Origin: a bacterium
GTDB taxonomy: Bacteria; Auribacterota; UBA3054
Assembly (NCBI GenBank): GCA_017539325.1
Contig: JAFYHD010000132.1
Span: forward strand, 1-34,499
DNA length: 34,499 nt
Reading direction: 5' to 3'
The position numbers were made by a program, and so were the translations under genes. Positions 485 to 14,933 of the stretch are shown here, piece by piece. Position 1 is the first letter of the stretch. Each line of letters starts with the position of its first letter. Under the pieces are notes generated by a model. The model saw only the letters and a list, made by a program, of their open reading frames with translations. It did not search any database and was not told where the DNA came from.

Positions 485-3079
485 ATGAGTATCAAGATCG
501 CTTTGGCCGGAAACCCGAACTCGGGAAAAACCACGCTTTTCAATGATCTGACCGGCTCCCATCAGTACGTCGGCAACTGGCCCGGCGTCACCGTCGAGAA
601 AAAGGAAGGCTTTTATGAAGGCGACAAGGAATTCGTGATCCAGGACCTGCCCGGCATTTATTCGCTTTCGCCTTATTCTTTGGAAGAAAGGATCTCCAGG
701 CAGTACCTTGTGAAGGACAGCCCGGACGGCATACTGAATATCGTCGACGGCACCAATATAGAAAGGAACCTTTATCTGACGACGCAGCTGGCGGAACTGG
801 GCGTGCCCATGGTGGTAGCCGTCAACATGATGGATCTCGTCAACAAGAGGGGCGACAAGTTCGATCTGGAGAAGCTCGGAAAGCGCTTAGGCTGCAAAGT
901 AATCGGCATCAGCGCGCAGAAAGGCGTCGGCTGCAAGGAATGCGCCGAGGCGATCTTCCAGTACGCCAAGGAAGCCAAACCCAAGGAAGCGCCGCACGTC
1001 TTCAGCGGTTCGGTGGAGCATGCCATCGCGCACATCGAGGAATCCATCCAGGGCGATGTGCCTGAAAAGGCCATCCGCTGGTACGCCATCAAGATCTTCG
1101 AAAGGGACAAAGAGATCATAGAAAAGCTGAATCTTGCTCCGGAGATCTTGGAGCATGTGGAAGAGCATATCATCGACTGCGAAAAGGAACTGGACGACGA
1201 CGCGGAATCCATCATCACCGCCCAGCGCTACGAGTTCATTCAGAAACTGATCAGCGAGTGCGTGAAGTTCAACGAGAAAGCGCGCCAGAAAGAAAGCCTG
1301 AGCGACCGCATCGACAGAATAGTAACGAACAGGATCTTGGCCATTCCGGTCTTTGTCCTGGCGCTCATGGCCATGTACTGGCTGGCGGTCTCCGACAACG
1401 GTCCCGGCACGAAACTGACCGACTGGGCCAACGACGAGTTTTTGGGCGACGGCTGGTTTCTGCCTTTCACGCAGCATGCCTATGTAACTAAGGAAGTCGG
1501 CGCCGAAACGCCCTGGTACGAAGGAAAGACCTATGATGAAGCCAGCTCTGAATACGAACCGCACGGCGCGAACGTTGAGAAGTGGCAGGCCGCCTATACC
1601 GAGGCCTACGATGAAAAGAACGGCGAAGGAGCCTTCGAGAAAGACCTGGCCGCCAGCGGTTCGGAAGAGGAATTCGAGGTGCTGGACGAAAGCCTGGCCT
1701 CCGGTGTCAAGACGGAAGTCTGGCTGGAGGACGAGGAGACCGGCGAAATTAGGACTGGCAACGTCAGCGAAACTGACGGCCTGATCTCGGCAGAGGACGA
1801 CGAGGAAGCGGAAAGCGAATTGAAGTGGACCTGCGATTATCCTATGTACAAGCGCTCTTCCGAAGTCGAGGAGCCAGATCCCAGCAGCGGCTTCGGCGTC
1901 TGGATCCCCGGCGTGGGCGCGCTCTGCGAGAAATTCTGCGACGCTGTGAAACTTGAAGACGGCAGCCTCGCGAGAGCCCTCATTATGGACGGCATCGTGG
2001 GCGGCGTCTGCACGGTCTTGGGCTTCGTGCCTGTCATCGCGATCGTTTTCCTGTTCCTGGCGTTTTTGGAAGACTGTGGTTACATGGCCAGAGTCGCCTT
2101 CATCATGGACCGCCTCTTCAGGAGCTTCGGCCTTTCCGGCAAATCTTTCATCCCGATGCTGGTGGGCAAGGGCTGCGGCGTTCCCGCGGTCATGGCGGCC
2201 CGAACAATCGAGAACGTGCGCGACCAGCGCATGACGGTGATCCTGGCGACCTTCATTCCCTGCGGCGCCAAGACCGTCATCATCGCCATGTTCTCGGCTG
2301 TCTTCTTCAGAGAATACTGGTGGGTGGCGGCCTCCATGGACCTTCTGGGCGTGGCCATCATCGTACTTGGAGGCATCGCGCTTAAGAAGACGAAACTCTT
2401 CGGCGGCGAGGCGGCGCCTTTCGTAATGGAACTGCCGGCTTACCACCTGCCGACGCTAAAAGGCATACTGATCCATACCTGGAACAGAGTCAGGGCATAC
2501 GTGATCAAGGCCGGCGTGGTCATCTTCCCGTGCTGCGTGGTGCTTACTCTCATGATGACCTTCAGCTGGAACTTCAGCGTGGTGGGAGACGCCATAGACC
2601 AGTCCATACTGGCCTCGGTCGGCCGCTTCTTCTCCTGGTTCACTTATCCTCTGGGATTTGGCAACTGGCAGGGGACGGCCGCCAGCATATCCGCTGAGAT
2701 CGCCAAAGAGCAGGCTACGGCCACCTTGGGCATGATCGCCAGCGGCGACGGCTCGGCAGCCGCCAACATCCTCGCCATGTTCAAGGAATTCGCCGGACAG
2801 GAATACAAGTTCGTCGCTCTGGCCTTCATGGTCTTCAACCTCTTCATCCCGCCCTGTGTGGTGGCCATCGTCGCGACGTTCAGGGAAATGGGAAGCAAGG
2901 CCTGGGGCTGGTTCGCCTTCAGTTTCCAGATGTTCGTCGGCTATCTCCTTGCTTTGAACGCCTTCCAGGTCGGCCGCTGCATTGCCTTCGGCACCTTCGG
3001 GACCTGGACCGCGATTACGATAATCCTGGACGTCATAGTCTTTCTGGCTATCGTGCGCCCAGCGCCAAAGGTGAAATAA
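485..3079 (+). CDS. feoB: Ferrous iron permease FeoB, with a long acidic insertion
   Basis: An 864-residue Fe(II) transporter of the inner membrane, longer than the roughly 700-770 residues usual for the family. The N-terminal G domain has G1 GNPNSGKTT (residues 9-17), G2 Thr in WPGVTVE, G3 DLPG (54-57), G4 NMMD (114-117) and G5-like SAQ (143-145). A helical regulatory domain runs to about 270. The first membrane helix is about 284-301. About 145 mostly hydrophilic, acidic residues (326-470) then precede the conserved core (FLED, GYMARVAFIMDRL). The core Cys motif reads GKGCGVPAVM, where FeoB proteins more often have Phe and Asn at the Lys and second Gly positions. Two Gate-type membrane regions follow. 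The gene overlaps nothing, and the next gene starts directly after its stop. Confidence 0.97.
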   Translation: MSIKIALAGNPNSGKTTLFNDLTGSHQYVGNWPGVTVEKKEGFYEGDKEFVIQDLPGIYSLSPYSLEERISRQYLVKDSPDGILNIVDGTNIERNLYLTTQLAELGVPMVVAVNMMDLVNKRGDKFDLEKLGKRLGCKVIGISAQKGVGCKECAEAIFQYAKEAKPKEAPHVFSGSVEHAIAHIEESIQGDVPEKAIRWYAIKIFERDKEIIEKLNLAPEILEHVEEHIIDCEKELDDDAESIITAQRYEFIQKLISECVKFNEKARQKESLSDRIDRIVTNRILAIPVFVLALMAMYWLAVSDNGPGTKLTDWANDEFLGDGWFLPFTQHAYVTKEVGAETPWYEGKTYDEASSEYEPHGANVEKWQAAYTEAYDEKNGEGAFEKDLAASGSEEEFEVLDESLASGVKTEVWLEDEETGEIRTGNVSETDGLISAEDDEEAESELKWTCDYPMYKRSSEVEEPDPSSGFGVWIPGVGALCEKFCDAVKLEDGSLARALIMDGIVGGVCTVLGFVPVIAIVFLFLAFLEDCGYMARVAFIMDRLFRSFGLSGKSFIPMLVGKGCGVPAVMAARTIENVRDQRMTVILATFIPCGAKTVIIAMFSAVFFREYWWVAASMDLLGVAIIVLGGIALKKTKLFGGEAAPFVMELPAYHLPTLKGILIHTWNRVRAYVIKAGVVIFPCCVVLTLMMTFSWNFSVVGDAIDQSILASVGRFFSWFTYPLGFGNWQGTAASISAEIAKEQATATLGMIASGDGSAAANILAMFKEFAGQEYKFVALAFMVFNLFIPPCVVAIVATFREMGSKAWGWFAFSFQMFVGYLLALNAFQVGRCIAFGTFGTWTAITIILDVIVFLAIVRPAPKVK

Positions 3080-3390: not shown

Positions 3391-3744
3391 GGGGGCGCAC
3401 CGGTTTCGACTGGGATCACAAGCCTTCTGTGGCATGTCGCGGAGGTCCGTTGGCCGCGTTATCAATCGGGCACAAACTTAACTGCGAACAACGAATTCGC
3501 TCTTGCTGCCTAATTAAAGGCAACGACGCTTCCCATCCCCTCCGCCTGTGGGGGATCTGAAGCGAGGTTAACAGGCTGGCCTTTTCCATGCCCGTCGGGG
3601 AAAGGCGAGATCATAGGCGGGATTTTCCCTATCAACGCCCGTCGGTTGGCTAGGCAAGGGATAAAACTAATCATCCGACTACACATGTAGAAGCAGCTGG
3701 TAAGGATCGTCAGGACGCGGGTTCGAATCCCGCCGCCTCCACCA
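3391..3744 (+). ncRNA. ssrA: Transfer-messenger RNA (tmRNA)
   Basis: A standard one-piece tmRNA of 354 nt that rescues stalled ribosomes and tags the nascent peptide for degradation. The 5' end GGGGGCGCACCGGTTTCGAC matches the conserved tRNA-like start. The 3' end has a T arm (GCGGG, TTCGAAT, CCCGC), then CGCCTCC, discriminator A and an encoded CCA. The acceptor stem pairs GGGGGCG with CGCCTCC over 7 bp, with one G-U pair. The internal reading frame for the tag is at 3484-3513. Downstream, 3525-3570 can form a strong hairpin around CATCCCC/GGGGGATC, consistent with a pseudoknot domain. The partner protein SmpB is not in the window. Confidence 0.97.
3484..3513 (+). other. tmRNA proteolysis tag reading frame (ANNEFALAA)
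   Basis: Inside the tmRNA, GCG AAC AAC GAA TTC GCT CTT GCT GCC TAA encodes ANNEFALAA after the alanine carried by the tRNA-like domain. The resume codon is taken as GCG because TAACT precedes it, equivalent to the TAGTC before the E. coli resume codon GCA. The ALAA end is the usual ClpXP recognition signal. Confidence 0.9.
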
Positions 3745-3786: not shown

Positions 3787-3834
3787 ATTAAATAATTGAG
3801 GAATTAATTATTTAATAATCTTTCTTTTTTGCTT

Positions 3835-4266
3835 ATGCGTATCGCTATCGGTTCCGATCATGCCGGTTTCGAACTGAAAGGGAAGCTTGTCGCTTTCCTC
3901 AAGGAACAGGGACTGGAAGTAGTGGACTGCGGCTGCAACGGGCCGGAGTCGGTGCATTATCCAGTTTACGGGAAAGTCGTGGCTGAAAAAGTTCAGAAAG
4001 GCGAAGTTGATTTCGGTCTCCTGATCTGTTTCACGGGCATAGGAATGTCCATGGTCGCCAACCGCTACGAGGGTGTCAGGGCCGCTTTGTGCCGCTCCTG
4101 CGACGAAGCCTTCATGACCCGCCAGCACAACGACGCCAACATTCTTGTTTTAGGCGCGAAATACACTTTTCAGCCGGACGCTTTCAGCATCGCCATGATG
4201 TTTTTGAAGACGCCGTTTTCCGGCGGGGAAAGGCACGCTCTTAGAATCAAAATGATCGAGAAGTAA
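3835..4266 (+). CDS. rpiB: Ribose-5-phosphate isomerase B (RpiB/LacAB family)
   Basis: A 143-residue cytoplasmic sugar-phosphate isomerase that interconverts ribose 5-phosphate and ribulose 5-phosphate in the pentose phosphate pathway. Visible family motifs are SDHAGF (residues 7-12), the active-site loop ICFTGIGMSMVANR (64-77) with Cys65 as the catalytic base, RAALC (82-86), and RQHNDANILVLGA (96-108) with His98. The usual CGTGIG loop reads CFTGIG here, a bulky Phe next to the catalytic Cys. I chose the ATG at 3835 over a TTG at 3829 because the family begins directly with M-[RK]-I-A-I-G-SDHAG. Its stop codon overlaps the start of the next gene (TAATG), which ties it to the ATPase operon. 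Confidence 0.93.
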   Translation: MRIAIGSDHAGFELKGKLVAFLKEQGLEVVDCGCNGPESVHYPVYGKVVAEKVQKGEVDFGLLICFTGIGMSMVANRYEGVRAALCRSCDEAFMTRQHNDANILVLGAKYTFQPDAFSIAMMFLKTPFSGGERHALRIKMIEK

Positions 4267-4415
4267 TGAACAACGTTTACGAACAGGTAATGGCATGGAC
4301 TTTCATAGCGGTGAGGGTGCTTATCTTCGGCGCCATAGTTTGGTATGCCATTTTCGAGTATCGCAGATGGAGCAGAAAGAATACGTTTGAAGAAGACGAA
4401 AAGGATGAGCAATGA
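4266..4415 (+). CDS. Small single-pass membrane protein at the head of the V-ATPase genes
   Basis: A 49-codon ORF whose ATG overlaps the rpiB stop and whose TGA stop overlaps the ATG of the next gene (ATGA), so it is embedded in a chain of translational coupling. The peptide starts MNNVYEQVMAW, has one hydrophobic helix of about 18 residues (11-30, ending VWYAIFE), then a basic patch (YRRWSRK) and an acidic tail (FEEDEKDEQ). That predicts one membrane helix with the charged tail in the cytoplasm. I do not recognise a family. Its place before the peripheral stalk gene suggests an accessory or assembly role for the membrane ATPase, by analogy with the small AtpI/AtpZ-type proteins of F-type operons. 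That role is inference. Confidence 0.75.
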   Translation: MNNVYEQVMAWTFIAVRVLIFGAIVWYAIFEYRRWSRKNTFEEDEKDEQ

Positions 4416-4720
4416 GCAGCATCAAGGATATAATCCAAACGGAAGAAGAAGCGGCCGCGATCCTTTCTAACGCCCAGAGCCAGGCCGAGCAGATCAAAAA
4501 GGAAGGCAAGGAAAAAGCCGCCGCCATTTTGGCCGAGGCCGAATCGATTCGCGAAGCCGAACTGGAAAAAGAGAAGGCCAGGATCATAAAAGAAGAGGTC
4601 ATATCGGCCGAAAATGACAAGGCGGAATTGGAAAAGCTTCTTTGTGAACGCGAGAAGAAATTCTCGGAAAAGAAGAACGCGATCGCCAGAGCCGTTCTGG
4701 AGGGTCTTCTGGAGAGCTGA
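4412..4720 (+). CDS. V-type ATPase subunit H/G-like peripheral stalk protein
   Basis: A 102-residue, almost wholly helical protein rich in Ala, Glu and Lys. It begins with SSIKDIIQTEEEAAAIL and continues as an amphipathic helix with repeated A..I...A spacing, typical of the G/H stalk subunits that pair with subunit E to form the peripheral stalk of V/A-type ATPases. It shows no membrane segment. It overlaps the upstream small membrane gene by 4 bp (ATGA) and sits 3 bp before the subunit C gene. The operon position is the usual one for subunit H/G. Sequence alone could also fit a generic coiled coil, but context makes the stalk assignment likely. Confidence 0.82.
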   Translation: MSSIKDIIQTEEEAAAILSNAQSQAEQIKKEGKEKAAAILAEAESIREAELEKEKARIIKEEVISAENDKAELEKLLCEREKKFSEKKNAIARAVLEGLLES

Positions 4721-4723
4721 GAA

Positions 4724-5797
4724 ATGGGTATTTTCGGGCTCTGCGAATTCGCGGCTCTCAACAGCCGCATCCACTATGTCAAATCGCGCATGCTGAAAGG
4801 CGGCGATTGGCAGACGTTGCTTAGCGGTTCGGACCTTAAGGCCGCCGTCGGCGACTTGGGCTCCTTGCCTATGGGAGAAGGGCTTGTCACAGAACGCGGC
4901 GACGGCAGTTTGTCTCTCAGGATGGTGGAGCACAGCCTTCAGCAGAATTTCGTGACCGAGACGCTGTCGCACATGCGCTTTCTGTCCGGCGCCTCGGCGG
5001 AAGCCTTAAGGGAGCTCGTCAGAGTTTACGACCTCATGAACCTGAAGAAAGTCCTGAGGATCAAGCTTGGCTACGAAGGCAAGGACAGAATGAGCGAGCT
5101 TTTCGTGGACCTTTACGACCTGGGAAGACACTCGCTTCTCAAAATGGATAAATGGCGGGAGCTGACAGAGGGCGGCAAAATTGGGAACGCTTTCGTTGGC
5201 ACCTGCTACGAGGAAGACTTCAAGCTCGACATCGAGTCGGCGGGGGAATCAGCCGGGTTGCTGCGCTTGGAGACCATTATCGAGAGAAGCTATTTCAAGA
5301 ATCTTTACGCTTGTTTGAAGAAGTCGGGCGGAGTCGAGCTTCTCAGAATGCATCTGGACGAACTTTGCTTAGAGCAGATGGTGCGCTTAAGGTACCACTT
5401 CGAAATGGAGATCCCTGCCATCCAGCCGCTCACTATGTTAGACCTTTCCGCCTCCTTCAACGAAAAGCTTTTCAATAAGCTTATGGAAGCGGAGGACGAG
5501 AGAAGCTTCTTCGAGCTGCTGAGCGCTGAACCGGCCTTCAAAGGCTTTGACTGCTCCAGCCTCGGCGCCTGCTTAAGATCCATGCGCCTCGCGAGAATGA
5601 AAGAGTGCAAGGCGATCCTTAATTCCGGCGCACCCTTGTCGCTTAGGCCTTTGACGGCGCTCTTCATGCTGAAGCAGCAGGAGATCAGGGACGTCGTCTC
5701 GGCCTTGCAGATCAAGCGTTTCCAGAGAGAGGGCAAGAAGGGCTGGCTCGTCATGCCGGAAGTCAACAAATCTGTCGTCAGGGAGGCTTCCTTATGA
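4724..5797 (+). CDS. atpC: V-type ATPase subunit C (central stalk, AC39/d-like)
   Basis: A 357-residue soluble helical protein matching the V-type subunit C family, which forms the funnel connecting the central stalk to the membrane rotor ring. The start (FAALNSRIHYVKSRML) resembles the conserved Y-x-[NS]-[AS]-R-[IV]-[RK]-x-[MK] opening of the family. Later there are paired regions with 'ERSYFKNLY' and 'LRLARMKECKAIL', as expected for a protein built from related helical repeats. The C-terminus contains 'PLTALFMLKQQEIRDVVSALQ', close to the family's typical K..Ei.nir.i. segment. The length is usual. It overlaps the subunit I gene by 4 bp (ATGA), so their translation is coupled. Confidence 0.9.
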   Translation: MGIFGLCEFAALNSRIHYVKSRMLKGGDWQTLLSGSDLKAAVGDLGSLPMGEGLVTERGDGSLSLRMVEHSLQQNFVTETLSHMRFLSGASAEALRELVRVYDLMNLKKVLRIKLGYEGKDRMSELFVDLYDLGRHSLLKMDKWRELTEGGKIGNAFVGTCYEEDFKLDIESAGESAGLLRLETIIERSYFKNLYACLKKSGGVELLRMHLDELCLEQMVRLRYHFEMEIPAIQPLTMLDLSASFNEKLFNKLMEAEDERSFFELLSAEPAFKGFDCSSLGACLRSMRLARMKECKAILNSGAPLSLRPLTALFMLKQQEIRDVVSALQIKRFQREGKKGWLVMPEVNKSVVREASL

Positions 5798-7827
5798 TGT
5801 TCCGCCCTGAGAAAATGAGTTTGCTGCAGTGCGTCGTCCTTGACAGCGACGTCATGAAAGCCTGCAATTTTTTGGTGCGCAGGAAAGTCATGCATCTCAT
5901 CGACCGCAGCCTCCTCCACCCGATCGGCAAAGAGACGCTTTCCGCCGAGCTTCTGGGCGCGCAGACTTCCCTTGAGAAGGCGGAATCTTCCCTCAAGAAG
6001 GTCGCCGACTGGCTGGGCCAGGACGCCGAGCGCGCTATGAGGCCCTTCGAGGGCGAGCTCTCGCCCGTGGAAGCCTCGAAAGAGATCTCGGAAGGTCTGG
6101 CCGCGCTTTTATCCGACATCACAGATCTGGAAGCGAGGAAGGAAGATTTCCTGGATCGGGAGACCGATCTGAAGAGGATCTCCGACGCTCTTCAGAGCCT
6201 TGAAATGGCGGGCGTTTCCGCTTCCGAATTGAGGAGCCTGAAATATTTCGAGTGTATGACGGGCACGATGCCCTTGAGGTTCGTCCCCGAACTCAAGAAA
6301 GCTTTGAAGAACACGCTTTCTGTTTCCGAGATCAGGAAACTCGGTTCGAGAGACGCCAGCGTCATAGTGCTTATGATCAAAGAGGACGCGGAAGTCGTCC
6401 GCAGCACCCTAAAGAGCGTTTTCTTCAACGAAGTCGAGATCCCGGAGAAGTATTCCGTCGAGACCGTAGAAGCTATGGACGAGATCGAGCTGGAGCTCTG
6501 GATGATCAGGGAAGAGGAAGCGCTTCTGAAGAAAGAGGAGCTCGCTCTGCGCTCCAAGGCCAGGAAGCTTTATGCGCGCTGGAAAGTGATGCTCGGCGCG
6601 CATCTGAGAGTTTTGGAAGCCATGAAGCTCTTCGGCAAGACCGCCAGCACGACTTACATCAGCGGCTGGGTCCCGAAAAAGGTCGCCCAAAAGATCGCCG
6701 AGGAACTATCTGTAGTTCTGGAAGGCCGGCTCATCTTTGATATCTCCTGCCCGGAAGACGCGGAAGGCGAGGCGAGCAGCGTCGTCAGAAGCGGCGCGGC
6801 CACCGTCCCGACGAAGTTCGACCATCCCTCTTTCCTGAGGCCTTTCGAACCGCTGGTCACGACCTACGGATACCCGGAGTACAACGGCATCGACCCGACG
6901 CTTTTCGTCGCCATCACTTTTTTGGTCTTGTTCGGCATGATGTTCGGCGACGTCGGTCAGGGATTGATCTTCGTGCTCTTAGGCGCCTTCTTCGCCTTCA
7001 ATAAGAAATTAGCTCCGCTTGCCGACACCGGCAAGCTCTTCATGTGCGTGGGCGTTTCGGCCATGTTCTTCGGCTTCATGTACGGTTCGGTCTTCGGCAA
7101 CGAGGAACTGATCCCGGCTTTGTGGCTGCATCCCGCCGAGGATAGCATCAAGCTTATCGCCAGCGCGATCTTCGTCGGCACGCTCGTTCTGACGCTGGGC
7201 ATCTTCCTCAACGTCTGGCAGGCCATCATGCGCAAGAATTGGCGCGAGGCCATTTTCGGGCAATGGGGGCTTTTGAGCAGCGTTTTCTACTGGACCGCCA
7301 TTGCGCTCTTTTATTACATGGTCGTGAGGAAGGGGACGCTCTCCATAGGCTTGGCCGTGGGAATGCTCATTGTCCCCGTGGCGGCCGTTCTGCTGGGCGA
7401 CATAGTCTGGGGACTTGTGCTTAAGAGAAAGGCCATTAAAGAGGCTTTGTTGGCCGCCAAGGAAGAGGAGACGGAGGACGAAGGTCTGGCCGAGCAGCTC
7501 TTCAAGCCGGTCGAAATTATTCTGAGCCTCATGACCAACACCATCTCGTTCATGCGTGTGGGCGCCTTCGGCATGAACCACGCCGTCATGATGAGCGTAG
7601 TTTACATTCTTGCCGACGTAGGGGGCGGCTGGAGCGGCCCTGCCGCCAACGCTTCAAGCAAAGTCTCCTACATCGTCTCTATCATCGTGGGAAATATTTT
7701 TGTCATGCTCTTGGAGGGGCTGATCGTTTTCATACAGTGCCTGCGTTTGGAATACTACGAGTTCTTCTCGAAATTCTTCGGAGGCTCAGGCGTGAAGTAC
7801 GATCCTTTGAGAGTGGACGACGTATAG
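5794..7827 (+). CDS. atpI: V-type ATPase subunit I (membrane stator, a-subunit)
   Basis: A 677-residue stator subunit that carries the ion half-channels against the K ring. Residues 1-360 are a soluble, coiled-coil-rich arm. From about 365 there are seven to eight membrane helices. The start of the membrane part has GYPEYNGIDPTLF followed by 'MMFGDVGQG', a family hallmark. The essential arginines are visible: Arg588 in ISFMRVGAFG and Arg651 in QCLRLEYYEFFSKF, matching the two arginines known in the Enterococcus NtpI subunit. A GGGAGG ribosome site lies in the end of the C gene. A second in-frame ATG one codon later is also possible as start. The gene ends 32 bp before the K subunit. Confidence 0.96.
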   Translation: MMFRPEKMSLLQCVVLDSDVMKACNFLVRRKVMHLIDRSLLHPIGKETLSAELLGAQTSLEKAESSLKKVADWLGQDAERAMRPFEGELSPVEASKEISEGLAALLSDITDLEARKEDFLDRETDLKRISDALQSLEMAGVSASELRSLKYFECMTGTMPLRFVPELKKALKNTLSVSEIRKLGSRDASVIVLMIKEDAEVVRSTLKSVFFNEVEIPEKYSVETVEAMDEIELELWMIREEEALLKKEELALRSKARKLYARWKVMLGAHLRVLEAMKLFGKTASTTYISGWVPKKVAQKIAEELSVVLEGRLIFDISCPEDAEGEASSVVRSGAATVPTKFDHPSFLRPFEPLVTTYGYPEYNGIDPTLFVAITFLVLFGMMFGDVGQGLIFVLLGAFFAFNKKLAPLADTGKLFMCVGVSAMFFGFMYGSVFGNEELIPALWLHPAEDSIKLIASAIFVGTLVLTLGIFLNVWQAIMRKNWREAIFGQWGLLSSVFYWTAIALFYYMVVRKGTLSIGLAVGMLIVPVAAVLLGDIVWGLVLKRKAIKEALLAAKEEETEDEGLAEQLFKPVEIILSLMTNTISFMRVGAFGMNHAVMMSVVYILADVGGGWSGPAANASSKVSYIVSIIVGNIFVMLLEGLIVFIQCLRLEYYEFFSKFFGGSGVKYDPLRVDDV

Positions 7828-7859
7828 CATTTAATCTAAATTTAAATAAGGAGTAACCA

Positions 7860-8219
7860 ATGAAAAGTAAAGATCTGAGATCCCGCTTTGCCAGGAGTTT
7901 CGCGCTTGTCGCCGCGGTCGTGGCCGTTCTTTTGGCCCCTATGGCTATCCCCATGAACGTCCAGGCTGACGAAACCGAAGCCATCACCGCTTCCGCGCCC
8001 CAGCAGGAAAGCAACACCATGAGATTCTGGGCCGCTGCGGCCGCCGTCAGCTTAGGCTCCATCGCCGGCGGCACGGCTGTCGCCATCGTCGGCTCCGCCG
8101 CCTTGGGCGCCGTCTCTGAACGCCCCGAACTGATGGGCCGTTCCCTCATCTTCCTCGGCTTGGCTGAAGGTATCTGCCTTTACGGAACGATCATCGCCTT
8201 CATGATCCTTTTCAAATAA
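7860..8219 (+). CDS. atpK: V-type ATPase subunit K (rotor ring proteolipid), single-hairpin form
   Basis: A 119-residue proteolipid. Residues 12-36 look like a signal peptide or extra helix ending MNVQA before DE. A single two-helix hairpin then follows: helix 1 about 55-84 (GSIAGGTAVAIVGSAALGA), loop SERPEL, and helix 2 about 93-117 with the ion-binding Glu103 in GLAEGICLYG. Enterococcus K is a four-helix protein of about 156 residues, so this ring would hold one carboxylate per hairpin, as in F-type c rings. No Gln is seen in helix 1 at the place used for sodium binding in known Na+ rings, and Glu103 is followed by Gly. I therefore lean weakly towards proton coupling. Strong AAGGAG site upstream. 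Confidence 0.93.
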   Translation: MKSKDLRSRFARSFALVAAVVAVLLAPMAIPMNVQADETEAITASAPQQESNTMRFWAAAAAVSLGSIAGGTAVAIVGSAALGAVSERPELMGRSLIFLGLAEGICLYGTIIAFMILFK

Positions 8220-8225
8220 AAACAC

Positions 8226-8528
8226 GTGAAAATCAAGATAGTCGGTGACATAATAACTGTGCGCGGCTTCGGTTTCGCCGGGATAGACGGCGTGGTCGTG
8301 AAAACGGCCCAGGAAGCCAGGACGGCTATTCTCAAAATGCTTCAGGACGAGGACATCGGCCTCATCCTGGTCGCCCAGAGCATAGCCAATTCCCTGGGCA
8401 ACGAGTTTGACGAATACCGGTTCCGCAAGCACCTGCCGCTGGTTCTGAGCGTGGAGGATTCCACGGGAGAAAAAGCGGTCGAGGACATCATGGCCGTCGT
8501 GCAGCGGTCACTGGGCTTGAAACTCTAA
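8226..8528 (+). CDS. atpF: V-type ATPase subunit F (central shaft)
   Basis: A 100-residue protein of the V-type F subunit family, part of the rotating central shaft with subunit D. It opens KIKIVGDIITVRGFGFAGIDG, the family's typical 'i.viGD.dtv.GF.laGi.g' pattern, followed by 'DIGLILVAQSIANSL', matching the 'digiI.it..ia' segment. The C-terminus has the P.ilsVed...... element (LPLVLSVEDSTG). The start is GTG, 6 bp after the K stop, and there is no Shine-Dalgarno. Translation is probably coupled to subunit K, which could lower F output relative to the ring subunit. Length is normal. Confidence 0.92.
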   Translation: MKIKIVGDIITVRGFGFAGIDGVVVKTAQEARTAILKMLQDEDIGLILVAQSIANSLGNEFDEYRFRKHLPLVLSVEDSTGEKAVEDIMAVVQRSLGLKL

Positions 8529-8535
8529 AAAAATT

Positions 8536-9114
8536 ATGGAAAAGATTTTTTCAGAGATACTGGACAACGCCAGAACCGAGGCGGAGAACGCCATAAGGGT
8601 GGCCAAGAAGATTGCTGCCCGCGAGGTGGAGTACGCCGAGAGGGAGGCTCGCGAAAGGAGCGAACGCTACAAGAGCGAGAACACCGCGGAGCTTCTGGCC
8701 CTCAGAGAAAGGCAGTCCGTCGTGAGAGTGAGGGAGAACAAAAAGCGCGAGCTTTCCCAGCGCCAGGCTTTCGTCGAGGAGATATTGAAGTCCGTGCTTG
8801 AGATCTTCAAAAAAGAAGGGCGCTCCGGCGCACTCGGCGAGAAATACCAGAGCTGGCTGAAGACTTGCTTTGAAAAGGCGACTAGCTGCTTCGATGAAGA
8901 GTTCTGCGTATCCTGCGCGAAAGAGGACGAAGCGGCGATAAAATCCCTCGCCAAGGGCGCTAAATTAAAGGAAGTCGTAACCGGCGATTACGCCGGCGGC
9001 TTCAAGGTGAGCGACCCGAAGGGCAGGATCTCCGTGGACTGCACCCTGGAAGCGGCTGTCAAGAACAACGAAGAAAAGTGGCGTGACCTTATCATGCGCC
9101 GACTTGGGGAATAA
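8536..9114 (+). CDS. atpE: V-type ATPase subunit E (peripheral stalk)
   Basis: A 192-residue subunit of the outer stalk. The N-terminal half (1-90) is a long charged helix (AENAIRVAKKIAAREVEYAEREA), the second half a compact domain with 'GDYAGGFKVSDPKGRISVDCTLEAAVK'. This matches the family's C-terminal 'GG.vv...dG.i.vdnTle..l' segment. It pairs with the H/G-like protein encoded earlier. The start ATG is preceded by an A-rich stretch (CTCTAAAAAAATT) rather than a Shine-Dalgarno, like subunit F, and the gap to F is 7 bp. The gap to subunit A is 2 bp. Confidence 0.93.
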   Translation: MEKIFSEILDNARTEAENAIRVAKKIAAREVEYAEREARERSERYKSENTAELLALRERQSVVRVRENKKRELSQRQAFVEEILKSVLEIFKKEGRSGALGEKYQSWLKTCFEKATSCFDEEFCVSCAKEDEAAIKSLAKGAKLKEVVTGDYAGGFKVSDPKGRISVDCTLEAAVKNNEEKWRDLIMRRLGE

Positions 9115-9116
9115 CA

Positions 9117-10889
9117 ATGGAAGAGACTCAGACAAGATTGGGAACGGTCTATCGCGTGAACGGCCCGGCCGTCACCGCCGCCGACACCGCCGAGCTCAGC
9201 ATGGGCGAGCAGGTGCTTGTTGGCGAGCTGAATCTCCCTGGCGAGATCATCCGCCAGGAAGGCGACATGAGCACCATCCAGATGTACGAGGACACGACCG
9301 ACATCAAGCCCGGCGACGTCGTCAGGGGCTTGGGCAGCGCGCTTTCCGTGGAACTGGGCCCGGGGCTTCTGGGCAGTTTCTACGACGGCATCCAGCGTCC
9401 TCTGGACCGCATCTATGAGAAGACCGGGACCTTCATCAGCCGCGGCGTTTCCGTACCGAAACTCAACGAGGAAAAGAAATGGCATTTCGTGCCGAAGGTC
9501 AAAGTCGGCGACGAGCTCAACGGCTGCGACATAATAGGCGAAGTGCCTGAAAGCCGCCTGATCGTCCACAAGATAATGGTTCCCCCGGACAAGCGGGGGA
9601 AATTGGTCAGCCTGGCTCCGGAAGGGGAGTACACGATAAAAGACGAGATCGGACGTTTGGAAGATGGGACGGTGCTGCGTTTGGCGCAGAAATGGCCCGT
9701 CAGGCACCCGAGGCCAAGTAAGGGCAGGCTCGAACCGAACGTGCCGCTCTTCACCGGACAGAGAGTCATCGACTTCTTCTTCACGATCGCCAGAGGCGGC
9801 GCGGCCGCCATACCGGGCGGTTTCGGCACAGGCAAAACCGTGACGCAGCACCAGCTCGCCAAATGGTGTGACGCCAACGTTATCGTTTACATCGGCTGCG
9901 GCGAGCGCGGCAACGAGATGACGCAGGTCCTGCAGGAGTTCCCGGAACTCAAAGACCCGAAGAGCGGATACCCCCTTATCGAACGCACAGTGCTTATAGC
10001 CAACACTTCCAACATGCCCGTGACAGCCCGCGAAGCCAGCATATACACCGGCATCACCATCGCGGAATACTACCGCGACATGGGCTACCATGTGGCCATC
10101 ATGGCGGACTCCACCTCCCGTTGGGCGGAAGCTCTGCGCGAGATCAGCGGACGCCTTGAGGAAATGCCCGCGGAAGAAGGCTTCCCTGCCTACCTCGGCA
10201 GCCGTCTGGCGGAGTTCTACGAGAGAGCCGGCAGAGTCACTCAGGGCGAAGGCGACAACATAAGGGAAGGCTCCATTTCCGTTATCGGCGCCGTCTCTCC
10301 CCAGGGCGGCGACTTCTCAGAACCGGTGACGCAGAACACCAGGCGCTACATCAGGGCCTTCTGGGCGCTCGACAAGGCGCTGGCTAGTGCCCGCCACTTC
10401 CCCTCCATCAACTGGAACGACTCCTACAGCGAATACGTCGCTGAGGTGCTCGAGTGGTGGAAGAAAGAAGTGCCGGAACTCGATTATTCCTCAATGCGCG
10501 AACAGGCCATGCGCATATTGCAGGAGGAGAACAAACTTCAGCAGGTCGTGAAGCTCGTCGGACCGGACGCGCTGCCCGACCGCCAGCGCGTGCTTCTGGA
10601 GACCGCGGACATCATCAAGCAGGCTTTCCTGCAGCAGAACGCCTTCCACAGCAACGACGTTTACTGCTCGCCCAGGAAGCAGCTGAGGATGATGGACGTT
10701 ATCCTCGACTTCTACAACGAGGCTCTGAAGGCGGTCGGCGCCGGCGTTCCCTTCACGAAGATCGCCGCTTCCGACATCATAACGAAAATGATCCGCATGA
10801 AGACCGACTTCGGCAACGAAGAAGCGGAGAAACTGTTGGATCTGAAACAGGAGATAAAGAGGGAACTGAAGCTTCTAACGGAACTCTGA
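9117..10889 (+). CDS. atpA: V-type ATPase catalytic subunit A
   Basis: A 590-residue catalytic subunit of the V1 head. The beta-barrel domain (1-70) opens RLGTVYRVNGPAV. The A-specific bulge domain follows at about 110-190. The nucleotide-binding domain has Walker A GGFGTGKT (234-241, Lys240) and catalytic Glu263 in GCGERGNEM. Further conserved stretches include ANTSNMPVTAREASIYTG, ADSTSRWAEALREISGR and SVIGAVSPQGGDFSEPVT. Length matches full A subunits, so the gene is intact. It ends 8 bp before a hairpin terminator. Subunits B and D normally follow A in these operons and are absent here. There is no decayed trace of them in the 155 bp before the next gene. Confidence 0.98.
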   Translation: MEETQTRLGTVYRVNGPAVTAADTAELSMGEQVLVGELNLPGEIIRQEGDMSTIQMYEDTTDIKPGDVVRGLGSALSVELGPGLLGSFYDGIQRPLDRIYEKTGTFISRGVSVPKLNEEKKWHFVPKVKVGDELNGCDIIGEVPESRLIVHKIMVPPDKRGKLVSLAPEGEYTIKDEIGRLEDGTVLRLAQKWPVRHPRPSKGRLEPNVPLFTGQRVIDFFFTIARGGAAAIPGGFGTGKTVTQHQLAKWCDANVIVYIGCGERGNEMTQVLQEFPELKDPKSGYPLIERTVLIANTSNMPVTAREASIYTGITIAEYYRDMGYHVAIMADSTSRWAEALREISGRLEEMPAEEGFPAYLGSRLAEFYERAGRVTQGEGDNIREGSISVIGAVSPQGGDFSEPVTQNTRRYIRAFWALDKALASARHFPSINWNDSYSEYVAEVLEWWKKEVPELDYSSMREQAMRILQEENKLQQVVKLVGPDALPDRQRVLLETADIIKQAFLQQNAFHSNDVYCSPRKQLRMMDVILDFYNEALKAVGAGVPFTKIAASDIITKMIRMKTDFGNEEAEKLLDLKQEIKRELKLLTEL

Positions 10890-10897
10890 TAAAAAAA

Positions 10898-10927
10898 GAG
10901 CCGCAGACTTTGCGGCTCCGGCCTTTT
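10898..10927 (+). terminator. Hairpin directly after subunit A
   Basis: GAGCCGCA (10898-10905) and TGCGGCTC (10911-10918) form an 8-bp stem with a 5-nt loop, preceded by seven A's. It is followed after CGGCC by TTTT. It looks like an intrinsic terminator with a displaced T tract. It closes the ATPase operon without B and D. Confidence 0.65.
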
Positions 10928-11044: not shown

Positions 11045-11542
11045 ATGACCAAAAAACCCAAACAAGTCGATCTTGAGCAGTACGGCATCTACGAGTGGAA
11101 GGGCCGAAAGTACGAAAGCACTTCGTACGTTTTCGCGCTCGTCTACAACATCACGATGAAGGAAGTGAACCAATATCTGGCCGGCTACGGCTTGAACGCC
11201 ACCAAGTACAACGTGCTCTTCGCCCTGAAAAACCAAAACCACGGCAAGGGCCTTTCGCAGGTCAAATTAGCCAGCCACCTGATCGTGACCCCCGGCAACA
11301 TCACGAAGATGCTGGACAGCCTTGAAAAGGCCGGCTATGTCGTCCGCGGCGTGAACCCGACGAGCCGCCGTGAGAACATCATCAAGATCACTCCGAAGGG
11401 ACTGGAATTCATCGAGGAAGTCTGGCCGGGCTACGACAAGCTTCTGGCTGAGATCTTCCAGACGCTGCCCGAAGAGCATCACGCGCCATTGGACGCCGCT
11501 CTGAAGCAGTGGTTAACCAACCTCAAGAACCGCAAGTCATGA
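11045..11542 (+). CDS. MarR-family transcriptional regulator
   Basis: A 165-residue winged-helix regulator. After a 20-residue leader come helix 1 (YVFALVYNITMKEVNQYL), helix 2 (LNATKYNVLFALKN), the helix-turn-helix LSQVKLASHLIVTPGNITKMLDSLEKAGYV, and the wing VRGVNPTSRRENIIKITPKG with the usual paired Arg and T-x-x-G. A C-terminal dimerisation helix follows. The ligand and targets cannot be told from sequence. The ATG has GAGGA 8 bp upstream. A GTCGG/CCGAC inverted repeat at 10998-11019 lies in the leader and could be an operator, though it is weak. The stop overlaps the start of the DtxR-like gene (ATGA), so the two regulators are made together. Confidence 0.9.
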   Translation: MTKKPKQVDLEQYGIYEWKGRKYESTSYVFALVYNITMKEVNQYLAGYGLNATKYNVLFALKNQNHGKGLSQVKLASHLIVTPGNITKMLDSLEKAGYVVRGVNPTSRRENIIKITPKGLEFIEEVWPGYDKLLAEIFQTLPEEHHAPLDAALKQWLTNLKNRKS

Positions 11543-11934
11543 GAGAATCCGCGGAAATGTACCTGGAGACGATCCTCGTCCTGCAGAAGAGCAAGGACGA
11601 CGGCGTCCACGCGGTGGACGTCTCCAGAGCCATGGGCTTTTCCAAGCCGAGCGTCAGCATCGCCCTGAAGAGATTGAAAAACCAGGGCTACATCGATATC
11701 GACGGCTTTGACCATATCATTCTTCTTCCTGAAGGCGAAAAGGTCGCCAGGGAGATATATGAACGCCATGAAGTCTTAAGCGCGGTCTTCATGGAACTCG
11801 GCGTCCCCGAGGAAATTGCGATAAAGGATGCCTGCAAGGTGGAGCACGTGATCAGCAAGGAGACCTTCGAGGCCTTCAAGCGCCGCAGCGCGAAGATCAA
11901 GAAGCGCTGCCTCGGGTGCGAGCATTACAAATAA
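11539..11934 (+). CDS. DtxR/MntR-family metal-dependent regulator, short form
   Basis: A 131-residue metalloregulator with an N-terminal winged helix (MRESAEMYLETILVLQ, then VHAVDVSRAMGFSKPSVSIALKRLKNQGYI) and a dimerisation domain. It lacks the SH3-like third domain of DtxR, as in MntR. The metal ligands can be read off: Met7, His77, Cys99, Glu102 and His103 (DACKVEH). Met plus Cys at these places is the iron-sensing DtxR pattern rather than the Asp/Glu of B. subtilis MntR, so I infer Fe(II) response. A CLGC motif sits near the C-terminus. I chose ATG 11539, overlapping the marR stop, over an upstream GTG at 11509. The Feo operon is a natural candidate target. Confidence 0.88.
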   Translation: MRESAEMYLETILVLQKSKDDGVHAVDVSRAMGFSKPSVSIALKRLKNQGYIDIDGFDHIILLPEGEKVAREIYERHEVLSAVFMELGVPEEIAIKDACKVEHVISKETFEAFKRRSAKIKKRCLGCEHYK

Positions 11935-11967: not shown

Positions 11968-13455
11968 ATGACCAAATATTACAGCCTTTTTTTATTCTTG
12001 CTGTTTTTGACCGCCGCTGTAAGGGCGGCCGGCCCGAAAGATTGGGAGAAAGCCTTTTCAAAAGAAGGTGTGTATAAAGAAGGTTCGGGCGATGTGGTCG
12101 TTTATTATTTCGCCATAAGCCTGGCTCCCGGCCCCGCCCGCGTACTCCCCACGCCCGCGAAGGAAGAGAAAGATCCCGAGCCCGTAAAGGAAGAGAAGGT
12201 CGAGGAGACGAAAGTTGAGGAAAAGAAAGTCGAGGAAGAGAAAACTCCTTTTGATACCGAGGCCGAATGGGAAAGGGATGACAAGCTAAAAAGAGCCAAG
12301 GAAAACATTCAGCATTACAGCGAAGAGATCGCGTATGTCAAAGAACAGTTGAAAAGCTTGGACCGCGATGCCGATTATGAGGAAGTCAGGAACCTGGAAA
12401 TTGAACTGAAAGCCAACCAGACCATGCTGGAGATAGCGCAGGAAGTCTTAGCCGAGCTGGAAGGCCAGTCAGCGGAAAAGGAGGCCCCTAAAGCGGAAGA
12501 GGAAAAACCGGCCGAACCCGAGAAGCCTGCGGAGCCGGAAAAACCCGCCGAGCCGGAGAAACCGGCCGAGCCTGAAAAGCCGGCCGTTGAGGAAGTTGAC
12601 AAGAAACCTCCCAAAACACCGGAAACGCACGAAGTCCCCACCAAGGAATTCTACAACGTCGTTAAAATCGCGAGAGCCGGCGACGCGGCTTACCGCAATA
12701 TCAACAGTTGGCTGCAATTAGATCTGAAGTGGCAATATGTGAACACCAAAATATATTTGGTCACGTCCCCGAAGATGTGGAACGCCCTGAAGACCACGAG
12801 CAAAACTTTCTCGCCCGTGCACAACGTCTGCTGGGACAGTAAGAGCCAGTCGGTGCTGCTTTTCGCGTCACCGAAGATAAAGGAAAACCTGGCCGCGAGC
12901 GCGGCCTTTGCCGTGGCTTCCATAGCCTTCGACCAGGCCATGCCTATAATGAAACAGAATAGTTCCGAAGTCCCCGACATTTTCTCCTATGGATTAAGGG
13001 CAAAAGCGGCCGATCTGGACGCGGTCGTTGATCTCAACAAGGTAACGAAGATGGAGTTTTTGAAGGAAAAAGAGCTTCTTCTGCCCGCTGAACTTTTGAA
13101 TCCGACAAGGATGGGCGATCCCAAACGCTGCTATTATTTCATGAGGCAGAGCAGGGCCATTGTGGACTTTTTCGGGACCAACAGGGTAAAGGAATTCCTT
13201 AAGATCGCGAAGGGAGGCAATTCCGGCTTCCGCAACAGCTACCAGCATATGCTCAATCCTGCCGAATGGGCCTGGGATTATGATGATTTCTGCAACAATA
13301 TGTCAAAGCGCTTGTTCTTCCCCTTGACGGAAGAAGCCCACAAGGATCCTGTGACAATGGCGGAGTGGCAGGCCTCTTTAAAGCAGGAGGACAAAGAGTT
13401 GGAAAGAAGAGCCAAAGATAGGAAATATAGAGAAGATCTTAGAAAATACCGGTAA
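11968..13455 (+). CDS. Secreted protein, tandem paralogue 1: coiled coil, PAEPEK linker, suspected pseudo-peptidase domain
   Basis: A 495-residue exported protein of a family I do not recognise. Signal peptide 1-21 (hydrophobic LFLFLLFLTAAV, cleavage near RAA-GPK). A small N-terminal module (GPKDWEKAF to about 50) is followed by a Glu/Lys linker and a predicted coiled coil at about 105-170. A proline-rich linker of four PAEPEK copies comes next. The C-terminal domain is about 225-480, with IYLVTSPKMW, SVLLFASPKI, an Ala-rich helix AASAAFAVASIAFD, YYFMRQSRAIVDFFG, and GGNSGFRNSYQHM near the end. This order of elements resembles gluzincin-type peptidases (the MA-like fold), but the helix where HExxH would sit lacks it. 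An inactive, binding-only domain is my inference. Confidence 0.82.
   Translation: MTKYYSLFLFLLFLTAAVRAAGPKDWEKAFSKEGVYKEGSGDVVVYYFAISLAPGPARVLPTPAKEEKDPEPVKEEKVEETKVEEKKVEEEKTPFDTEAEWERDDKLKRAKENIQHYSEEIAYVKEQLKSLDRDADYEEVRNLEIELKANQTMLEIAQEVLAELEGQSAEKEAPKAEEEKPAEPEKPAEPEKPAEPEKPAEPEKPAVEEVDKKPPKTPETHEVPTKEFYNVVKIARAGDAAYRNINSWLQLDLKWQYVNTKIYLVTSPKMWNALKTTSKTFSPVHNVCWDSKSQSVLLFASPKIKENLAASAAFAVASIAFDQAMPIMKQNSSEVPDIFSYGLRAKAADLDAVVDLNKVTKMEFLKEKELLLPAELLNPTRMGDPKRCYYFMRQSRAIVDFFGTNRVKEFLKIAKGGNSGFRNSYQHMLNPAEWAWDYDDFCNNMSKRLFFPLTEEAHKDPVTMAEWQASLKQEDKELERRAKDRKYREDLRKYR
12508..12579 (+). repeat. Four tandem PAEPEK-encoding 18-bp units
   Basis: Four in-frame 18-bp units each encode PAEPEK, followed by a partial fifth (PAVEE). 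Synonymous codons differ between copies (CCG/CCT/CCC, GAA/GAG), which suggests the repeat is kept at protein level as an extended, rigid spacer. The neighbouring paralogue has a Lys/Glu linker at the same place. Confidence 0.9.
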
Positions 13456-13478
13456 AAAATCATCTGCGAGGAACAGAT

Positions 13479-14933
13479 ATGAAAAACCATTATATATTAT
13501 TTGTTTTATGCTTTCTCCTAGGCCTAACTTCTTTGGCCGCCGGACCTCAGGAATGGAAGAAAGCTTTCAAGGACGCCAAAATAGAAGAATCCAGCGAAGT
13601 GGACATCCTGTATTTTGAGCAGTGCCAGGTCCCGGGCAAGGCCAAAGCGAAAGTTGAGGAAACGAATTTTAAGGAACTGAAAGCTGACGACCCGAAAGCC
13701 GAGGAAGTGAAAGATCCTTTCGATTCCGAGGCCGAATGGGGAAGCGACGACAAGCTGACAAACGCCAGGGAAAACATTCAGCATTACAATGAAGAGATCG
13801 CGAATATAAACGAGCAGCTGAAAAAATTGGATCCGGACGCCGATTTTGAGGAAGTTAAGAACCTGAAATTTGAACTGAAAGCCAACCAGGCCATGCTGGA
13901 GATCGCCCAGGAGGTCTTAGCCGAAATGGAAGGCAAATCGGCGGAAAAGGAAGTCTCCAAAAAGCCCGAGGAGAAGAAAGAGGTAAAAAAAGAGGAGAAG
14001 AAGGAGGAGAAAACCGCCGCCGAGAAACCCAAGAAGGGTCCTGAGGTCCATTTCGAGTCGACCTCCAAATATTACGACATTCCTTCGCTTGCAAGCGCTG
14101 CCAGCGACTGTTTCAGCCACGCCAGGGGCATCCTGGACGTCAATAGCGACGACGGGAAGATCCATTACAAAGTTTATTTCATTACGGATCCGAAGATGTG
14201 GAAAGCCCTCAAGAGGGAAGGAAAGCATTTTTCCCCCGCCAGGAACGCTGACTGGGATATGAAGAGCCGTTCCGTTCTGCTTTTCGCTTCGCCGGCCATC
14301 ACAAATTCCCTGGCGGCCAGCCTGAAATTTGCGATGGCTTCGCTGGCTTTCGAGCGGAAGATGCTGGAAGTCAATCCTAAGGAAGAAGCCAGCGACCTGG
14401 TGGCCAGGGGCTTTGCCTTCCACGTCTCGGGACTTAATTCCGTCGTCGACATCAACAAGGTGTTTTATCTTCCGGCCCTGAAGGAAAAGGACCTGCTCGC
14501 TCCCAGCGAACTCATCAATCCGACCAGAATGAACGATCCGAAGCGCTTGCTCTGCTTCTCAAGGCAGTGCGCCGCCGTGGTCGATTTTTTCATGAAACAC
14601 AGCAATTTCCTGAACAAATACATCCCCAGCTTGCAAGGCGGGAATTCCGGCTTCCGCAACAGCTTCCAGCACCTGGGCCTGGGCGAGGACTGGGCTGAGA
14701 ACTATGACGACTTCTGCAACAACATGACGACAAGGCTCTTCTTCCCGCTGACCGAAGCGGCCAACGACGCCGAGGCTTATTCCGAATGGAAACAGTCCCT
14801 GGAAAACGACGCTATCGCCCAAAAAGACAAGGAAGCCATGCTCCAGAGGAGAAAGGAGACGCGGGAACGCAGACACAACGAATATAAAAGCACTCACACC
14901 AGTAGTGGGAAACGCATCATTTATAGACACTAG
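13479..14933 (+). CDS. Secreted protein, tandem paralogue 2
   Basis: A 484-residue exported paralogue of the preceding protein. Signal peptide 1-21 (FVLCFLLGLTSLAA-GPQ). The N-terminal module (GPQEWKKAF) and the coiled coil are very close to copy 1: both contain RENIQHY-type starts, EVKNL/EVRNL and LEIAQEVLAE. The linker here is Lys/Glu-rich (KKEEKKEEK) instead of PAEPEK. The C-terminal domain has VYFITDPKMWKALK, SVLLFASPAI, AASLKFAMASLAFER, LINPTRMNDPKR and GGNSGFRNSFQHL, then YDDFCNNM and LFFPLTEAA shared with copy 1. No catalytic HExxH is present. The gene lies 23 bp after copy 1 with a GAGGAA ribosome site, in the same operon. Confidence 0.82.
   Translation: MKNHYILFVLCFLLGLTSLAAGPQEWKKAFKDAKIEESSEVDILYFEQCQVPGKAKAKVEETNFKELKADDPKAEEVKDPFDSEAEWGSDDKLTNARENIQHYNEEIANINEQLKKLDPDADFEEVKNLKFELKANQAMLEIAQEVLAEMEGKSAEKEVSKKPEEKKEVKKEEKKEEKTAAEKPKKGPEVHFESTSKYYDIPSLASAASDCFSHARGILDVNSDDGKIHYKVYFITDPKMWKALKREGKHFSPARNADWDMKSRSVLLFASPAITNSLAASLKFAMASLAFERKMLEVNPKEEASDLVARGFAFHVSGLNSVVDINKVFYLPALKEKDLLAPSELINPTRMNDPKRLLCFSRQCAAVVDFFMKHSNFLNKYIPSLQGGNSGFRNSFQHLGLGEDWAENYDDFCNNMTTRLFFPLTEAANDAEAYSEWKQSLENDAIAQKDKEAMLQRRKETRERRHNEYKSTHTSSGKRIIYRH

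Follow-up and report, generated by a model that had tools for sequence, protein, structure and literature searches.

A V/A-type ATPase operon that ends after subunit A

The window, by which we mean the whole 34,499-nt stretch of DNA that was analyzed, carries on its plus strand seven closely packed ORFs (4412-10889) for subunits of a V/A-type ATPase. Pfam matches above cut-off identify subunit C, the AC39 protein at the top of the central stalk (4724-5797; PF01992, E 2.6e-26), the membrane stator subunit I (5794-7827; PF01496, E 1.2e-34), the rotor ring subunit K (7860-8219; PF00137, E 5.5e-13), subunit F (8226-8528; PF01990, E 2.2e-16), and the peripheral-stalk subunit E (8536-9114; PF01991, E 2.1e-10). 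The last gene encodes the catalytic head subunit A (9117-10889; PF00006, E 1.5e-74), which scores 860 bits against the NCBIfam model for V-type ATP synthase subunit A (cut-off 470) and is full length, with the P-loop GGFGTGKT from residue 234 and the catalytic glutamate in GERGNE from residue 262. The first ORF, of 102 aa (4412-4720), matched nothing in Pfam or NCBIfam; we assigned it as a G/H-like peripheral-stalk subunit by its position and its Ala/Glu/Lys-rich make-up, and its place is that of the G/H stalk subunit in relatives with split and intact operons alike.

A hairpin (GAGCCGCA-loop-TGCGGCTC, 10898-10918) starts 8 nt after the stop codon of A and ends the half-operon. It folds better than shuffled sequence (z -3.6) and is terminator-like on the minus strand. 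Congeners have a GC-rich hairpin of other sequence at the same place 3' of A, in several of them with no T-run on the plus strand. The hairpin of the window is probably a terminator, possibly a bidirectional one. Neither intact nor remnant copies of B or D were found 3' of A in the window, where a tblastn search with B matched A alone, and the next genes past A encode MarR-like and DtxR-like regulators unrelated to the ATPase. A preliminary description of this DNA had reported the same order of genes, from an H/G-like subunit to an intact A with its Walker A motif and catalytic glutamate, then a hairpin and neither B nor D. ORF, Pfam, and folding analyses confirm that account, with a G/H-like ORF that lacks a family match.

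The start of the operon seems to lie earlier than 4412. The probable first gene of the transcript encodes an rpiB/lacAB-type isomerase (3829-4266; Pfam LacAB_rpiB, E 6e-52), and it is followed by an ORF for a 49-aa single-TM protein (4266-4415) that has no Pfam match, begins in overlap with the rpiB stop codon, and ends in overlap with the start of the G/H-like gene. Among related genomes, rpiB also adjoins V-ATPase genes in G005, G009, and G010. Farther 5' on the same strand lies the tmRNA gene (ssrA, 3391-3744; Rfam RF00023), and in the congener G005 as well the front half stands behind rpiB with a tmRNA gene, located by ARAGORN, 5' of it. The tmRNA is probably only a neighbor of the front half because 84 nt and a weak promoter match (AAGACA-17-TAGAAT, from a consensus scan) separate it from rpiB. 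The tmRNA of the window was itself missed by ARAGORN and detected by Rfam at 181 bits.

Several other features of this region deserve mention. Translation of the 49-aa protein is coupled to that of rpiB and the G gene, and the protein is kept at the head of the operon across the genus and the order; it also occurs in the intact relatives L114 (2067-2201) and L154 (2220-2348) and is absent from the other loci searched. It is possibly an unrecognized V-ATPase accessory protein. The half-operon is flanked 5' by a FeoB-like iron transporter gene (485-3079) and 3' by the regulator genes (11045-11934), and the DtxR-like and FeoB genes may once have been neighbors. Beyond them, positions 11968-14933 encode a tandem pair of secreted proteins that are related to each other and contain Pro/Glu/Lys repeats; three more relatives lie in tandem in G005 (L071, 1873-5860).

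Subunits B and D are encoded at a second locus

The genome to which the window belongs is a metagenome-assembled genome (MAG) of 1.99 Mb in 183 contigs, 91% complete. Profile searches of the whole genome returned two D genes and six matches to the ATP-synt_ab model. One contig, C150, carries B (465 aa; 721 bits against the NCBIfam B model) and D (205 aa; PF01813, E 1.9e-54) and no A, in the order B, CarboxypepD_reg-like protein, D, UspA, PTS EIIA, CysE-like acetyltransferase. No remnant of A was found ahead of B in this back half. These B and D are the missing partners of the A in the window. The preliminary description had predicted B and D in a second locus beside other genes, which is where they lie, and had named their absence from the genome as the mark of a dead operon, a possibility that fails with both genes present.

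The protein encoded between B and D on C150 is 200 aa long, begins with a signal-like stretch, and contains a CarboxypepD_reg domain. The secreted CarboxypepD_reg-like protein encoded between B and D in L009 (12624-13226, minus strand) has a low-complexity, PAEK-rich tail. All split genomes that we checked have a gene of this kind separating B from D, and intact operons lack it. Its product is secreted, yet the gene is flanked by genes of two cytoplasmic subunits.

The split extends across the genus and the order

All eight members of the genus have the same arrangement, with the same end after A. Most of these genomes are fragmented MAGs, and the better-assembled congener G005 is the sole one to show both halves on one contig: A (127104-128873) and B (257570-258964) lie on the same strand of a 542-kb contig, 129 kb apart. 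That contigs simply end, or were misjoined, after A would be conceivable in a MAG of 183 contigs, and a misjoin at this point was the other objection raised in the preliminary description. We regard such an assembly or binning artifact as practically negligible, given that the same junction recurs in eight genus members, that G005 holds both halves on one contig, and that other genes extend for kilobases past A and also ahead of B.

Among 15 genomes of the order, we found a type 1 A in 13, the matching B in 14, and both in 12, in none of which are A and B neighbors. A was not found in G008 and G013, nor B in G009; these genomes are 74-86% complete, and the missing halves are most simply explained by incompleteness.

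Elsewhere, A directly before B is usual. The other families of the phylum have 19 type 1 operons with A directly before B, a count that leaves out two further operons ending at contig edges. Among named loci in public genomes, the 80 that match B best include 76 in which A immediately precedes it, counting L150, where 1.4 kb lies between the two genes. The remaining four are L088 and L089, which belong to this order (the records of G012 and G008), and the archaeal loci L128 and L158. The comparison of operon order in relatives that the preliminary description had called for places the split throughout the order. The usual contiguity of A, B, and D in type 1 V/A-type ATPases is absent here, which concerns the arrangement and not the enzyme type: judged by its genes, the enzyme is an ordinary V/A-type ATPase in an unusual gene arrangement.

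Gene order, phylogeny, and selection point to one divided operon

Intact operons in Spirochaetota, Planctomycetota, and Lentisphaerota run on past D into uspA and EIIA, and the split B-D block is likewise followed by uspA-EIIA. The nearest intact operon, L154, reads smallTM-G-C-I-K-F-E-A-B-D-uspA-EIIA. The split order has rpiB-smallTM-G-C-I-K-F-E-A at one place and B-CarboxypepD_reg-D-uspA-EIIA at another. The break coincides exactly with the A-B boundary, and no other gene has changed its order relative to L154. Because the nearest intact relatives read G-C-I-K-F-E-A-B-D-uspA(-EIIA), we infer that a single ancestral operon was severed at the A-B boundary, with uspA-EIIA leaving alongside B-D.

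In maximum-likelihood trees, the split A sequences form one clade and the split B sequences form one clade, both sister to the same pair of intact operons, L114 and L154 (SH-aLRT 99 and 96), and in both trees apart from the two operon kinds of other families in the phylum. Since the two trees agree in setting the split halves next to the same intact pair, a single operon appears to have been cut rather than two merged. The opposite history would start from an ancestor with two type 1 operons, each of which lost the complementary half to leave a hybrid enzyme. In several families of the phylum there are indeed two type 1 operons; these are, however, far apart in the trees, where split A and split B both fall beside L114/L154, and only a very recent duplicate could give such trees. 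Neither a remnant of A before B nor one of B or D after A was found, and we consider reciprocal loss unlikely.

The halves also bear the signature of working genes. Between congeners, dN/dS (NG86) is 0.05-0.12 for A, 0.03-0.08 for B, and 0.01-0.07 for D, values that indicate purifying selection on both halves and their retention as functional genes. R358 of B, in the motif PSLSRIM, is invariant in an alignment of 13 rows; we take it to be the likely arginine finger, a role known from the Thermus and Enterococcus V-ATPases.

A potential source of other partners for A is contig C2, where the genes of a second, complete V-type ATPase follow one another as E, unnamed ORF, A, B, D, I, K. With this full A-B-D-I-K set at hand, the A of the window could be unused or paired with the B and D of C2. 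Such a dead or borrowing operon is highly improbable: the reading frames are all open and show purifying selection, the B on C150 shares the tree of the A in the window, and the A on C2 is only 47% identical to that A. The G005 contig, the order-wide split, the trees, the dN/dS values, and the search for remnants together disfavor artifact, dead operon, borrowing from C2, and reciprocal loss.

As a separate observation, the K subunit of C2 (L010) is a four-helix protein with Gln and Glu-Thr motifs typical of Na+ binding, of which the Gln is missing from the K of the window (7860-8219). The ions that the two pumps move may differ.

A tRNA-Leu gene lies ahead of the B half in the genus

In all eight genus members, a tRNA-Leu(UAG) gene stands directly before B with a gap of about 25 nt, in which we found no terminator-like site. 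The sequence 5' of the tRNA contains TTTGACTAAAAAC and TACAAT, which form a TTGACT-17-TACAAT promoter that is invariant in the eight genomes, and the sequence farther 5' varies among them. From this arrangement, B and D are probably read from the tRNA-Leu promoter in this genus. We looked for a promoter motif common to both halves by eye and by consensus scan; the match before rpiB in the front half is weak, unlike the strong match before tRNA-Leu.

Other members of the order show different leads. The order is tRNA-Leu, nfeD, B in G012 and G014, nfeD lies directly 5' of B in G008 and G011, and in the genus of the window nfeD is absent between the tRNA and B. The presence of nfeD ahead of B in these four genomes suggests that the site to which the back half moved lay behind nfeD, a gene that the genus no longer has there.

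Discussion

We propose that a single break, at the exact boundary of A and B, divided an ancestral smallTM-G-C-I-K-F-E-A-B-D-uspA-EIIA operon in the ancestor of the order. The front half through A would have remained behind rpiB, while B-D-uspA-EIIA would have moved to a site behind nfeD, where in two families a tRNA-Leu gene also precedes it, and would have acquired the gene for a small secreted protein between B and D. Together, the two transcripts would provide for one ordinary A3B3 head and for D, its rotor shaft. In the genus of the window, B-D would be transcribed from the tRNA-Leu promoter, and 3' processing of the tRNA would release the mRNA. We put the probability of this account as a whole, a single fission in the ancestor of the order, two transcripts for one enzyme, and a tRNA-led B-D in the genus, at roughly 90%.

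A more speculative extension, about which we are rather doubtful, concerns regulation. If a tRNA-Leu transcript carries the head and shaft half as its tail and a separate operon by the tmRNA gene expresses the rest, the supply of B and D might come under the growth-rate or stringent control of stable RNAs and so limit the number of finished pumps.

Few genes in bacteria are linked as firmly as those whose products pair strictly within one complex. Severed cleanly between A and B across an order, with a precise break point and intact sister operons, the operon offers a natural test of whether co-translation from one operon is needed for A3B3 assembly, and also of how two transcripts are matched; for one half, B-D, the tRNA-promoter arrangement gives a concrete and testable answer. 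As far as we have checked, a bacterial V/A-type operon cut between the alternating head subunits throughout an order, with B-D behind a tRNA promoter in one genus, is new. The open-access literature that we searched held no direct report of split V/A-type operons in bacteria, and one may exist elsewhere.

The closest known systems are the V/A-type operons of Spirochaetota, Planctomycetota, and Lentisphaerota, which share with the split loci the same subunits, the gene order on both sides of the cut, and the uspA-EIIA tail. Those operons are intact (C-I-K-F-E-A-B-D-uspA-EIIA), whereas here the cut separates A from B and a CarboxypepD_reg-like gene lies between B and D. The archaeal A-type ATPases of L128 (Desulfurococcales) and L158 (Thermoplasmatota) resemble the split loci in having a B without A directly upstream, but belong to other lineages with other neighbors and lack the uspA-EIIA tail as well as a leading tRNA or nfeD gene. 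The placement of B finds a likeness in tRNA-mRNA operons such as tRNA-tufB of E. coli, where a protein is encoded immediately after a tRNA gene and shares its promoter; here it is V-ATPase head and shaft genes that follow the tRNA, in what would be a shared transcript. Rotary ATPase operons are split in other ways in cyanobacteria and green sulfur bacteria. The F-type ATP synthases of alpha-proteobacteria are encoded by separate F1 and FO operons (PMC9317440). As proposed here, one rotary ATPase is made from two transcripts in these bacteria, but their cut runs between the F1 and FO sectors, and ours lies inside the head, between the alternating subunits A and B.
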